A stretch of DNA of 64,000 bases from positions 219,830-283,829 of the forward strand of contig JAJFJA010000059.1 of the NCBI GenBank assembly GCA_021774445.1, given 5' to 3'. Within the stretch, counting starts at the first letter, position 1. Each line of letters begins with the position of its first letter. The stretch comes from Alphaproteobacteria bacterium (GTDB lineage: Bacteria; Pseudomonadota; Alphaproteobacteria; UBA6615). Below, piece by piece: positions 49,653 to 59,431 of this stretch. The notes beneath the pieces were generated by a model. The model had not been told where the DNA came from. It made no database searches and saw only the letters and a list, made by a program, of their open reading frames with translations. The position numbers and the translations under genes were made by a program.

Positions 49653-50300
49653 TTAGGCGCTTCGCAACAGTTTCAATAGCGGCCAAATCTCATCCCACTG
49701 AACAGCCAGTACTGCCTGCGGATCTGGCCATCCATCATCAGCCAGGAACAAGGCCAGATTGAGCAGATCGGGATCTGTGTCGGCGTAGGCTTTGACCAGC
49801 GACCCGTTTGGCTTCTCCCGAACGAAGGCGCACAGATTCAGGATCGCGCAGAAATCGGCCACCACCGCGTTGTTCTTCGGTCCGGCGTATGACGGCCAGT
49901 CTCTGGACAACGACGGCACAGAGCTCGGCAGGCGGTCGACCCCGATCATCAAGGGGTCGCTCGCGAGATAATGGACCGAGCCGACATTGCTCATCGCGAT
50001 GGCCACCGCACAGAGCACGCAAGGCTGCAGCGTCGTATACAGCGTGTAGTCGCGATAGGTGGCAGGCGGCAGTTGCCCGAGCAGATCGATCTCGGCATGA
50101 GCGATGGCATTGCCGGACAGATGTCCCTTCGGCGCATCGTCGTCATGTACCCGGTTACGTCCTTCGGCCACGGCGTCGCCATTTCCGTCGACCAGCACCG
50201 CGCCGACACCCCGGCTACCCAGTGTCGCCGACTCCCAGGCAAGCTCAATCGCGCGGCGCTCGTGTGGCGCCAAGTCCGCCCAAACTTGCCGTGCCCGCAT
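49653..50300 (-). CDS. Nucleoside/cytidine deaminase-like protein
   Basis: AIAHAEIDLLGQL...TLQPCVLCAVAIAMSNVGSVHYLASD. Confidence 0.87.
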   Translation of the reverse strand: MRARQVWADLAPHERRAIELAWESATLGSRGVGAVLVDGNGDAVAEGRNRVHDDDAPKGHLSGNAIAHAEIDLLGQLPPATYRDYTLYTTLQPCVLCAVAIAMSNVGSVHYLASDPLMIGVDRLPSSVPSLSRDWPSYAGPKNNAVVADFCAILNLCAFVREKPNGSLVKAYADTDPDLLNLALFLADDGWPDPQAVLAVQWDEIWPLLKLLRSA

Positions 50301-55304: not shown

Positions 55305-57344
55305 ATGCTGGACGCTACGTTCGTACATTTGCCAGGAGTCGGAGCCTTAGGTGAAAAGAAGCTCTGGTCCAGGGGCATTCTTACCTGGGACGATCTTTAT
55401 GAGGAGCGTCGAGAGAGGCTACCCCTGCTCGGTCTAATGGGTAGGGAGCACGTCTTTCCAGATCTTGAGGAAAGCTGGCGGGCCCTCGAACGCAAAAACA
55501 GTGAGTACTTCGCACTTGCACTGCCAAGACCTGAGCATTTCCGAATTGCGCTGAGTTTCCCCGAAGAAACGTTGTTCGTTGACATCGAAACGACCGGGCT
55601 GAGCCACTACTACAACGACATCACCGTGATCGGCTTGGCCCGGCAGGGCGAGTACGTCAGCTTTGTGGCGGGAGATAGCCTTGATGAGGCCAAAGATCTC
55701 ATCCGCAACGCGAAATGTATTGTGACCTTCAATGGGACTCTCTTCGATATTCCATTCCTCAAGAAAGAAATGCCAGACATCCAGTTTCCAGCCGCCCATG
55801 TCGATCTAAGATATCTCACGCGACGACTCGGGTGGCAGGGGGGGCAGAAGAGCGTTGAGGAACAGCTCGGTGTTAGCAGACCCAGCGAGCTGGGTGAGCT
55901 AAGGGGAGGTGACGCTCCTGCACTATGGTACGAATACATCGCTGGGCGATCAGAGGCCCTGGACACGTTGGTCCGCTACAACCAAGCCGATTTGCGCGGC
56001 ATGCAAGAAATCCTCGACAAAGCCGTGAACGCATTGATTGAGACTCAGCGCATCAGTTGGGAATGTCCGCCCGAAGCAAAGTTCGCTCGTGCACCGGCCC
56101 AGCCACCCACGCAACATAAGACCAGGGTCTTACCCACGACTGCCGCCAAGCGGCTAGCTGTCTCTGACCTCCTCGGTGACAGCGCACCACGCCGTGTCGT
56201 TGGGATCGACCTCACTGGTTCAGAGAGTCGGCCAAGCGGCTTCTGCGCGCTGGAAGGTCGCAGTGCATTGACCTCGCTCCTTTCAAAAGACGACGAATTG
56301 CTCGAGGGGGTGAGAAAATTCAGACCACACCTGGTATCCATCGACTCGCCTCTTTCCCTCCCAGTCGGCCGCCAATCGCCCTGGGATGATGACCCTGGAC
56401 GTCACAAGTTTGGGATCATGCGGACCTGCGAGCGGATACTGAAACGAAGGGGGGTCAACGTCTACCCAAGTCTGATACCGAGCATGCAAAAATTGACAGC
56501 GCGCGGAATCCGTCTAGCGGAGAGACTTCGCGCAGAGGGTGTGCCGGTGATCGAGTCATATCCGGGAGCCGCTCAGGACATAATGGGCATCCCGCGCAAG
56601 CAAGCAGGCCTCTGCCACCTAAGGCGAGGGCTCGCGAGGTTTGGTCTAACCGGTGCAATCGCCACTGAGGAGGTGTCTCACGACGAGTTGGACGCGGTCA
56701 CGTGCGCGGTTGTAGGCTTGTTCTTCCTCTCGAGGAGATTTGAGGCCCTTGGGAACGCCGACGAAGGATACCTGATTGTGCCTGATCTAAAGAGGAAGGC
56801 TCCAGGCAGCCATCATGTCATCGGTATCAGCGGTTTGATCGCTGCGGGGAAGACCACCGCCGCACGGTATCTCGATAGTAAGGGATACGCGTATGTGCGA
56901 TATAGCCAGGTCATTGAAGCCGAGGCTACAAAGCGTGGTCTGCCAAGAACACGCGAAATACTGCAGCAACTGGGAAAGGAGATACATAGCACCAAGGGCC
57001 AGAAGTGGCTGCTTGATCAGCTGCTAATGCGTCTTGCCGACCTGCCAGACCGCATCGTCGTAGACGGTATGCGGTTCCCCGAAGATCACGCGAATCTGGT
57101 CGAGCGGTTTGGATCGGAGTTCGTCCATGTCCACATAGAAGCGTCTGACAGTGCTCGACGCAGGCGATACCTGTCTATGGGTTATTCGAATGAGGTGTTT
57201 GAAGAAATATCCGTCCATTCAGTAGAAAGTCAGGCGATCAAGCTCACAAAGTTGGCCCACGTCTTGATTGAGAACAACTCGTCTATGGACGCCCTATATG
57301 CAGCCGTGGACCAAGAACAAGCACTAGCAAATTCTGGGGGATGA
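55305..57344 (+). CDS. Fusion protein: YprB-like RNase H-fold exonuclease + DUF429 + P-loop (d)NMP/dephospho-CoA kinase-like domain
   Basis: FVDIETTGLSHYYNDITVIGL / FNGTLFDIPFL; then VVGIDLTGSESRPSGFCAL...VSIDSPLSLPVGR...SYPGAAQDIMG...HDELDAVTCA; then IGISGLIAAGKTTAARYL...IVVDGMRFPED. Confidence 0.82.
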   Translation: MLDATFVHLPGVGALGEKKLWSRGILTWDDLYEERRERLPLLGLMGREHVFPDLEESWRALERKNSEYFALALPRPEHFRIALSFPEETLFVDIETTGLSHYYNDITVIGLARQGEYVSFVAGDSLDEAKDLIRNAKCIVTFNGTLFDIPFLKKEMPDIQFPAAHVDLRYLTRRLGWQGGQKSVEEQLGVSRPSELGELRGGDAPALWYEYIAGRSEALDTLVRYNQADLRGMQEILDKAVNALIETQRISWECPPEAKFARAPAQPPTQHKTRVLPTTAAKRLAVSDLLGDSAPRRVVGIDLTGSESRPSGFCALEGRSALTSLLSKDDELLEGVRKFRPHLVSIDSPLSLPVGRQSPWDDDPGRHKFGIMRTCERILKRRGVNVYPSLIPSMQKLTARGIRLAERLRAEGVPVIESYPGAAQDIMGIPRKQAGLCHLRRGLARFGLTGAIATEEVSHDELDAVTCAVVGLFFLSRRFEALGNADEGYLIVPDLKRKAPGSHHVIGISGLIAAGKTTAARYLDSKGYAYVRYSQVIEAEATKRGLPRTREILQQLGKEIHSTKGQKWLLDQLLMRLADLPDRIVVDGMRFPEDHANLVERFGSEFVHVHIEASDSARRRRYLSMGYSNEVFEEISVHSVESQAIKLTKLAHVLIENNSSMDALYAAVDQEQALANSGG

Positions 57345-57345
57345 G

Positions 57346-58395
57346 ATGCCAGTAACCGTTGTTGTCGGGGGGCAGTTTGGGTCTGAGGGGAAAGGTAAGG
57401 TTTCCCACTGGTTTACCCGCGAGGAGAAAGCGGCTGCAGCGATCCGTGTGGGCGGAACCAATTCAGGACACACAGTGGTCGACCCCACCGGTAAAAGGAG
57501 AGTGTTCAGACAGCTGCCCACTGGAGCAATTCTCGACGGCGTTAGTTGCGTGTTACCCGCCGGCGCATACATCGACCCTGACACTCTCCTTTCAGAAGTC
57601 GCAATGATCGACCTTCCGAAGGAGCGGCTCTTTATCGATCCCCTCGCAACCCTTATTGGCGACCGTGAACGCGAGGAGGAGCGCAAGTCTAGGCTCAAGC
57701 AGGAGATCGGCTCGACACTCAGTGGCACAGGAGCTGCGGTTGCACGCCGCATTTCCAGGGACGGTTCCGCGCGGCTGGCTAGGGACGACGATCGGCTGGC
57801 GCCCTTTCTACAGCACACAGTCCCATATCTGCGGCAGTTACTCGACCAGAGGCGACGAATCGTGATTGAGGGTACCCAGGGATACGGCTTATCCCTGCTC
57901 CATTCATCCGACTACCCCAGGGCAACGTCAAGGGACACAACCGCAGCAGCATTTGTAGCAGAGGCTGGACTGAGTCCGCTCGATGTTGATCAAGTCATTC
58001 TGGTTCTGCGCGCATTTCCCATAAGAGTTGCGGGCAATTCCGGTCACCTACCTGAGGAGATCGACTGGTCCACACTGGCGCGAGAAAGCGGATACGCCAG
58101 CCTCACCGAGCGGACCAGCGTCACCAACGCAGTGCGGCGGGTGGCACGATTTGATCCAGGCGTTGTTGTAGCGGCCATCCAAGCCAACCAACCCACGGCC
58201 ATTGTGCTGAACCACGTTGACTATTTTGATGCTACATGCGCGCATGAGCAGAAAATCACAAGAATCGCGATGCGTCATATTCGAGGGATCGAACGCCGGA
58301 TTGGACGAGCGTTCGATTACCTCGGTGTTGGGCCAGACCATCTGGTAGCATGCTCAATCGGCGCACCGTCTAAGTGTCTTAGTCTCGCGGTGTGA
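57346..58395 (+). CDS. Short adenylosuccinate synthetase-like protein (archaeal/phage PurZ-like)
   Basis: VVVGGQFGSEGKGKVSHW...RVGGTNSGHTVV...IEGTQGYGLSLL...TSRDTTAAAFVAEAGL; 349 aa. Confidence 0.82.
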   Translation: MPVTVVVGGQFGSEGKGKVSHWFTREEKAAAAIRVGGTNSGHTVVDPTGKRRVFRQLPTGAILDGVSCVLPAGAYIDPDTLLSEVAMIDLPKERLFIDPLATLIGDREREEERKSRLKQEIGSTLSGTGAAVARRISRDGSARLARDDDRLAPFLQHTVPYLRQLLDQRRRIVIEGTQGYGLSLLHSSDYPRATSRDTTAAAFVAEAGLSPLDVDQVILVLRAFPIRVAGNSGHLPEEIDWSTLARESGYASLTERTSVTNAVRRVARFDPGVVVAAIQANQPTAIVLNHVDYFDATCAHEQKITRIAMRHIRGIERRIGRAFDYLGVGPDHLVACSIGAPSKCLSLAV

Positions 58396-58414: not shown

Positions 58415-59431
58415 ATGCCAAACTTAGAGCAATCGCTCGAACGCGAACGTCTTGCTAAAATTCCCTACGTAACCAACGATGCGCATTCAGATAGACAAGG
58501 CGTACTTCTAAGCAACGATATAAAAGCATATATCGACGAATTCAACCTAATCAATCCGTTTTGCTCTGCCAATCTAAAGCCAGCGGGGTACGAGCTCTCC
58601 GTGGGAAACGAATATGTTCTGGGGGGAGACCATCACTATCTCGATTCCGCTGGTGAGGACCAGGAAATCGCAATTCCGCCATTTCAAGTTGCCTTTATCA
58701 AGACGAAGGAGACACTAAACCTTCCCTCATTCCTCATTGGCCGATGGAATCTTAGGGTCCATTGGGCTTACAAAGGATTATTGTGGGTGGGTGCGGCTCA
58801 AGTTGATCCCGGCTACGTTGGGCACCTCTTCTGCCCACTCTATAATCTTGGCCACCAGGTCGTGTACGTGCGCAGAGAAGAGAGGATTGCCCTTATTGAT
58901 TTTGTCAAGACGACGAAGTTTAAGCCGGGAGAATCACAACAATACGTGAGGCCACCGACAAGGCCGACTCTCTCTTCTTTTGGACTAAAAGACCAGAAGA
59001 GCGCTCTTTTCACCGAGATACGAGGCCTGGTAGACGAGTTTGAGAAGAAGATACAAAAACTAGAAAATCAGGTTCGCCTTTTCGGGTCGTTATCGTTCAC
59101 CACATTAGCAATCCTTGTGGCAGCAGGAGCAGCCATAACTGGCTTTAAGGACGTCCCCGCGAACAGTCTGAACGCAGTCGCAATTGTGCTGGCTGCCTTC
59201 GCACTTGTCGCGTGGTTGCTTGAGTTTCTTAGGAACCATCGCACACGGATGTCGGATCGGTTGGAGAGCAAGATCGATGAGATTCGATCCGAATCCTTCT
59301 TCAGGATTGACAGGACCGAAAATGCTCAAGCGACCGCCATCGAAGCACTCAAGTCGCGATTAGATGAGATATCCGGTGCTGTGGACAAAGCGTCGTTGCA
59401 AAAATCGTCACCACCGCACGATGAGGAATGA
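58415..59431 (+). CDS. dCTP deaminase/dUTPase-fold (DCD-like) protein with C-terminal two-TM module
   Basis: PAGYELSVGNEYVLGG...LPSFLIGRWNL...AAQVDPGYVGHLFCPLYNLGHQV...IALIDFVKTT; C-term LFGSLSFTTLAILVAAGAAITG and NSLNAVAIVLAAFALVAWLLEFL. Confidence 0.75.
   Translation: MPNLEQSLERERLAKIPYVTNDAHSDRQGVLLSNDIKAYIDEFNLINPFCSANLKPAGYELSVGNEYVLGGDHHYLDSAGEDQEIAIPPFQVAFIKTKETLNLPSFLIGRWNLRVHWAYKGLLWVGAAQVDPGYVGHLFCPLYNLGHQVVYVRREERIALIDFVKTTKFKPGESQQYVRPPTRPTLSSFGLKDQKSALFTEIRGLVDEFEKKIQKLENQVRLFGSLSFTTLAILVAAGAAITGFKDVPANSLNAVAIVLAAFALVAWLLEFLRNHRTRMSDRLESKIDEIRSESFFRIDRTENAQATAIEALKSRLDEISGAVDKASLQKSSPPHDEE

Follow-up and report, generated by a model that had tools for sequence, protein, structure and literature searches.

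A PurZ-like enzyme encoded beside a nuclease-kinase and a membrane protein with an inactive dCTP-deaminase/dUTPase fold in a patchily distributed operon: a candidate anti-phage signalling system

The window, that is, the whole 64,000-nucleotide stretch of alphaproteobacterial DNA that was analyzed, contains an island in which four genes follow one another on the forward strand in the order A-B-C-E (cf. Table 1). Gene A codes for a DEDDy exonuclease joined to a DUF429 region and an NMP kinase, gene B for a short relative of adenylosuccinate synthetase (PurA), gene C for a membrane protein with a dCTP-deaminase/dUTPase (DCD/dUTPase) fold, and gene E for a protein to which no function could be assigned. 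The GC content of the island is 49-58%, with a GC3 of 0.53-0.61, against 65-72% GC for most of the flanking genes. An earlier note on this DNA, made from the sequence alone, had pointed to an open reading frame in which the motif GGQFGSEGKG carries Ser in place of the catalytic Asp of PurA. This reading frame proved to be real (349 residues, an ATG start, and Ser13), and the opposite strand offered only broken frames and one ORF of 97 residues. What the note missed is that gene B belongs to a conserved multi-gene system.

Table 1. Positions of the genes, domains, and key codons of the island and of other genes mentioned in the text (window coordinates unless a locus number is given).
Feature	Position	Strand	Basis or remark
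Gene A, 679 aa	55305-57344	+	N-terminal helical region, HhH-like (weak)
DEDDy 3'-5' exonuclease domain of A	about 55572-56024	+	Pfam RNase_H_2 7.8e-30
DUF429 RNase-H-like domain of A	about 56202-56726	+	Pfam DUF429 2.8e-3
NMP-kinase-like P-loop domain of A	about 56820-57296	+	Pfam AAA_18 1.1e-7
Gene B, PurZ-like succino-purine-nucleotide synthetase, 349 aa	57346-58395	+	ATG start; Pfam, NCBIfam, and PDB matches, alignment, tree
GGQFGSEGKG motif, residues 8-17 of B	57367-57396	+	
Ser13 codon of B	57382-57384	+	Asp at this position in all PurA compared, Ser in phage PurZ
Gene C, 338 aa	58415-59431	+	Domain, then TM segments, then long C-terminal helix
dCTP-deaminase/dUTPase-fold domain of C, residues 33-164	58511-58906	+	Pfam DCD 8.8e-13
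Pro141 codon of C	58835-58837	+	Aligns with the catalytic Glu of dCTP deaminase (E145 M. jannaschii, E138 E. coli)
Two predicted TM segments of C	about 59072-59128, 59174-59230	+	TM scan
Gene E, 257 aa, no assigned function	59421-60194	+	11 nt overlap with the end of C
tRNA-Thr(CGT), right edge of island	60220-60295	-	
Cytidine/deoxycytidylate-deaminase-like gene	49653-50300	-	dCMP_cyt_deam_1 7.9e-13; 5 kb left of the island, outside the operon
YfbR-like HD genes at other loci	L024:7302-7904; L026:9792-10340; L029:6633-7235; L066:7257-7898; L074:7296-7934		

Database comparisons placed the B protein in the Adenylsucc_synt family (Pfam PF00709, 9e-42), with scores under the cut-offs of both the archaeal-type PurA model PRK04293 (250 bits, cut-off 368) and the NCBIfam PurZ model NF038379 (229.4 bits, cut-off 300). 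The PHROG of phage PurZ was matched at 2e-68, and the top PDB match was PurZ0 of the Gordonia phage Archimedes (7vf6, E 1.5e-48), the other matches including Pyrococcus PurA (2d7u, 1e-46) and the PurZ proteins of PhiVC8 (6fm1, 2.4e-33) and S-2L (7odx, 6.3e-26). Besides lacking Asp13, B is not the sole PF00709 enzyme of its genome: the search for a second canonical purA, which the earlier note had proposed, identified a single further gene, encoding a full-length canonical PurA of 435 residues on contig C76 (581.5 bits). A separate canonical PurA was also retained in 15 of the 16 host genomes of related loci that were tested.

The residues of B were then examined in an alignment comprising 81 sequences of the operon set (the window and one plasmid copy included), 4 kinase-fused plasmid relatives, 10 phage PurZ/PurZ0, 29 IMG/VR sequences, 20 canonical PurA, and 21 short archaeal PurA. 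At the catalytic position (S23 of S-2L PurZ), the operon set has Ser in 79 sequences and Gly in the remaining 2, whereas Asp occupies it in every canonical (20/20) and archaeal (21/21) PurA, which argues against a chance substitution. The Asp-to-Ser change that the earlier note had tentatively ascribed to PurZ is correct, since Ser is found there in 100% of 147 phage PurZ sequences (PMC12884076). Likewise, the position of S-2L T273 in the aspartate loop is Thr in B, in 76 of the 81 operon sequences, and in all 10 phage PurZ, versus Gly in all 20 canonical PurA and Ala or Gly in the archaeal ones; both S23 and T273 are among the residues that are unique to PurZ and contact its substrates (PMC8342488). 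A third position, A50 of S-2L, forms part of the dGMP base pocket (PMC8342488). It is Ala in phage PurZ (10/10) and all PurA, versus Ser in 79/81 of the operon set (Ser40 in B) and in 14 of the 29 IMG/VR sequences. This Ser appears, from the alignment, to be a signature of the operon enzymes themselves and possibly reflects a change of substrate, so the substrate of the system enzymes may not be dGMP. The column of S-2L Q308, where the alignment is uncertain, holds Asp in B and PurA and Gln in only 1 of 10 phage PurZ, and an RV[AG]GxSG loop (77/81 of the operon set versus 1/41 PurA) serves as a supporting motif only.

A 79-taxon maximum-likelihood tree, corresponding to the phylogenetic check that had been suggested, split the Ser-type from the Asp-type enzymes with a support of 100/100 and left B on the Ser side, apart from PurA. 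Neither of the two results that would have spoken against the earlier note, a place inside PurA or the absence of another purA, was thus obtained. Within that side, the operon enzymes and 14 IMG/VR sequences form their own clade (95.2/97), outside both phage PurZ and PurZ0. Taken with the residue pattern, this placement makes the operon enzymes a PurZ-like third branch that belongs to neither phage subgroup. The earlier description of B as PurZ-like therefore holds as far as the Ser-type clade, the residues equivalent to Ser23 and Thr273, and the short length are concerned, all of which B has in common with the enzymes of the Z-genome phages S-2L, PhiVC8, Archimedes, and Wayne; it does not extend to membership in the phage groups, from which B is set apart by its subclade, its base-pocket Ser, and its score under the NCBIfam PurZ cut-off. 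Judging by sequence, we are nearly certain that B is a PurZ-like enzyme and not a PurA. Its activity on dGMP is an inference, and the Ala-to-Ser replacement in the base pocket leaves the exact substrate open.

A scan of 85,488 species genomes yielded 408 related loci, of which the best 80, at 42-60% identity, were examined. The recurring gene order was recognized by gene calling around the loci and then confirmed with profile HMMs. Among these best 80 of the 408 loci, A was present in 72, C in 77, and both in 71, with median spacings of -1 nt between A and B and -4 nt between B and C, while 26 carried a further gene, D, whose product of about 200 residues is a deoxynucleoside kinase (dNK 9.7e-31); D was not found in the window. 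Homologues of E, for which no Pfam or NCBIfam family was matched, lie beside the operon at 17/80 loci (E 5e-46 to 5e-16). The 80 loci span 17 named phyla of bacteria and archaea, two of them archaeal, and include Cyanobacteriota, Pseudomonadota, Bacillota, Bacteroidota, Acidobacteriota, Lokiarchaeota, and Halobacteria. At eight loci no A was present within the stretch read; an HD nucleotidase stood in its place at two of these and at one plasmid locus. That A-B-C constitutes a functional system seems to us hardly in doubt.

Several relatives depart from this arrangement. On replicons of Burkholderia, Rhizobium, Agrobacterium, and Methylobacterium (L025, L026, L027, and L029), an NMP-kinase-like domain is fused to a Ser-type PurZ domain and the gene after it encodes a DUF7002 protein (Pfam E 2e-63 to 4e-70), which may be its effector; at L025, Gabija-resembling TOPRIM and UvrD genes are located some 5 kb away from the fusion. 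In rhizobia and their relatives, genes for HD-domain YfbR-like 5'-deoxynucleotidases, with a weak match to S-2L DatZ, adjoin the PurZ-like genes, and three loci with such a gene are without gene A. A cluster on an R. leguminosarum plasmid (L028:7375-15721; folE, an Asp-type short PurA-like gene, purB, queE, an IMPDH-like gene, a nitrile hydratase-like gene, and queC) was considered as a relative and rejected, as its enzyme keeps the Asp and the cluster has the appearance of a 7-deazapurine one; it is likely a pathway to a 7-deazapurine nucleoside.

The AF2 model of the A protein (pLDDT 89.6) was matched by Foldseek to an AMP-bound adenylate-kinase-related protein of Sulfolobus (3lw7; TM 0.83-0.85 on the target) and to proofreading structures of B-family polymerases. 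The DEDDy residues (D93, E95, D148, Y225, and D229), the acidic residues of DUF429 (D302, D347, E417, D460, and D463), and G515-K516 of the kinase are invariant in 44/44 sequences. In the A proteins of Lachnospiraceae, Bacteroidales, and certain other lineages, an HhH-PHP (PolX-like) module (PHP 1.8e-14) takes the place of the exonuclease, with DUF429 and the kinase kept (L050, L053, L069, L071, L077, and L089). A kinase seems to be required, since among the five loci at which A has no scored kinase domain, three encode a dNK separately and one more encodes an adenylate kinase.

Foldseek likewise related the AF2 model of the C protein (pLDDT 84.3) to dUTPases and dCTP deaminases (E 1e-12 to 1e-8). 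Among NCBIfam models, TIGR02274 (2.5e-17) and SLATT_fungal (9e-4) were matched, both under their curated cut-offs, which makes the SLATT-like character of C weak. In the profile alignment to the dCTP deaminase structures 2hxd (E145A) and 3gf0 (E145Q), the Glu mutated in these two falls on the Pro of C, and this Pro replaces the catalytic Glu in 55/55 C homologues. At least one TM segment is predicted in 79 of 83 sequences of the C family, mostly a single one with a coiled coil; a second subtype, to which the window protein belongs, has two or more. We infer, without ligand data, that C binds a dNTP without deaminating it and reports to the membrane. Two C-type genes per locus occur at L058, L059, L090, and L097 (Bradyrhizobium, Sphingomonas, and Rhodopseudomonas), and L058 and L097 hold one of each subtype (IPLHN, with one TM segment, and CPIYN, with several).

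The system has probably spread horizontally, its carriers being patchily distributed and its composition foreign. No PurZ-type B was found in 24 genomes of the same family, and a close homologue of A was present in 1 of 398 other Pseudomonadota genomes; A was chosen as the query for prevalence because the search of relatives with B returned canonical PurA fragments outside its own locus. The sequence left of the island yielded no attL-like copy of the tRNA-Thr end, and an empty insertion site could not be demonstrated, since the window and its relatives have no common gene order left of hemY. Conjugative plasmids carry some of the related loci, in part with TOPRIM/UvrD (Gabija-like), AbiJ, or RelA/SpoT genes close by; other loci are near restriction-modification genes. 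At a threshold of 1e-10, 131 PADLOC families were matched for 110 neighbours of the loci versus 35 for 110 neighbours of canonical PurA. This excess is suggestive; it was counted by families and not by genes, is modest, and comes without a proper enrichment test.

Viral contigs gave no match in a single-sequence scan, though an alignment-based scan did find PurZ-like relatives. No A, C, or D was found on 14 viral contigs, most of which carry a system-type PurZ. On one IMG/VR phage contig with portal and major head genes (L112:6001-7041), a lone system-type PurZ, 59% identical to B, lies between head genes on the opposite strand, unaccompanied by A, C, or D; a moron, a decoy, and an anti-defence gene are all conceivable.

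No described multi-gene system in PADLOC v2 fits the operon proteins. B and C had no match in it, and A only partial ones (PDC-S44, dCTPase, and DEDDh models); the match to the candidate PDC-S44 covers the DUF429 region (5.3e-11), which in A is fused to the exonuclease and the NMP kinase and adjoins B and C. The SLATT and S-4TM systems resemble C in fusing a nucleotide-binding-fold domain to a short TM module, yet most C proteins have a single TM segment and a coiled coil, and among the partners that recur we saw neither a SMODS nor a CD-NTase gene. KomB of the Kongming system is HAM1-like, its fold being that of a dNTP-cleaning enzyme. In Kongming, dITP made with the help of phage and host kinases activates an effector, a base-modified dNTP thus acting as an immune signal (PMC12948488). 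The likeness of the present operon to Kongming (KomABC) is one of principle: a purine-modifying enzyme and kinase steps lead to a non-canonical dNTP that is bound by a dedicated protein (PMC12948488). The synthetase and the sensor fold (here DCD/dUTPase) are different, however, and instead of NAD depletion the operon offers TM segments, together with a kinase of its own. No homologues of KomA, KomB, or KomC were detected, and no adenosine-deaminase, HAM1, or SIR2 domain was present among the Pfam matches of the operon proteins. We found no description of the A-B-C operon in the literature, a search that did not cover most subscription papers or preprints outside PMC; a survey of PurZ published in NAR in 2026 deals with viral sequences and four archaeal PurZ-like ones (PMC12884076).

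These findings led us to hypothesize that A-B-C is a system of defence or conflict, which we consider probable, and, with about an even chance of being right, a horizontally moved anti-phage system, most likely of the abortive-infection type, that signals with a modified purine deoxynucleotide. Its activity, ligand, and protective effect are all inferred. PurZ of phages converts dGMP, Asp, and ATP into dSMP (N6-succino-2-amino-dAMP), from which host enzymes complete dZTP (PMC8342488). By analogy, the exonuclease of A (DEDDy, or PHP in other lineages) would turn DNA exposed by infection into dNMPs, including dGMP, and could so be both trigger and source of dGMP, although the infection trigger is unknown; in some loci, dNK may also supply dNMP. 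B would then attach Asp at position 6 of dGMP. The resulting N6-succino-2-amino-dAMP may be processed by host PurB to dZMP, the Z nucleotide, and phosphorylation by the kinase of A and by host NDK would take the product to the triphosphate level. Such a succino- or Z-deoxynucleoside triphosphate is not expected in uninfected cells. The deaminase-dead domain of C might bind this odd dNTP, whereupon the TM segments would assemble and damage the membrane. C fits the part of a receptor because it combines a dNTP-binding fold lacking the deaminase Glu with TM segments, and purine dNTPs are within the reach of a dUTPase-like fold, as the DutZ proteins of PurZ0 phages demonstrate (PMC12884076). In our estimate, the odds that C senses a modified purine dNTP as the signal are about even. 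We are less confident that its base is Z or succino-Z, and it is with similar reserve that we propose PurZ chemistry as the source of a 2-aminopurine deoxynucleotide serving bacteria and archaea as an immune messenger, to which a DCD/dUTPase-fold receptor devoid of deaminase activity would respond by opening the membrane.

The same enzyme set would also be compatible with a defence by attack on the nucleotide pool, in which dGMP or dGTP is consumed, or a toxic analogue is made that halts phage DNA synthesis, C acting as a membrane regulator and not as a receptor. Depletion of deoxynucleotides is a known principle of defence, employed by dCTP deaminase and dGTPase systems, and the kinases would favour the triphosphate of an analogue. 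Still, an inactivated DCD/dUTPase fold and TM segments kept in 77/80 loci fit a sensor-effector better, so that we hold such an attack to be unlikely, though it deserves to be kept in mind. Less probable again is that the operon makes Z (2-aminoadenine) nucleotides for DNA as Z-phages do, be it for the genome of a mobile element or for DNA marking. The position of B in the Ser-type PurZ clade would agree with this, as would the HD nucleotidase genes beside some related loci and the kinases and dUTPase-fold or HD nucleotide enzymes held by Z-phage clusters as well (PMC12884076). However, the partners of phage PurZ are DatZ, MazZ, DutZ, DmtZ, or DpoZ, whereas those of B are a nuclease-kinase and a DCD-TM protein, and no DNA polymerase, MazZ, or DatZ recurs in the conserved operon among the best 80 loci. 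Moreover, C has TM segments behind a DCD domain from which the catalytic Glu is missing, and a chromosomal host would need to have its dATP pool emptied.

A role in the biosynthesis of a specialised nucleoside metabolite, without any function in defence, could be invoked on account of the PurA-like gene beside purB, folE, queE, and queC on R. leguminosarum plasmids. That enzyme falls outside the Ser-type clade, though, and no exporter, tailoring, or resistance gene is common to the A-B-C operons, which leaves this explanation with very little weight. Finally, B retains most of the catalytic residues of the PF00709 family to which it belongs and might be taken for a divergent PurA that uses IMP and serves as a housekeeping reserve; given the Ser in place of the catalytic Asp, the Thr at the position of S-2L T273, the separate canonical PurA, and the tight operon with A and C, we find this scarcely credible.

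So far, PurZ chemistry has been treated as a means by which phages alter their own DNA; the handful of relatives known from archaea had no explanation. Here, a separate PurZ clade is encoded in a conserved cellular operon, next to a nuclease-kinase and a membrane-bound nucleotide binder without catalytic function, which suggests that cells, too, produce odd nucleotides of this kind deliberately, probably as an alarm signal. The labels 'adenylosuccinate synthetase' given to genes on plasmids and islands should accordingly be read with caution, as they can mask another activity. If the signalling hypothesis is true, immune signalling by modified dNTPs would have a second family besides Kongming, and the operon would be a possible origin of phage PurZ in cells. 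The system is directly testable; it also provides a candidate for a new messenger and, possibly, a relative of phage PurZ in cells.
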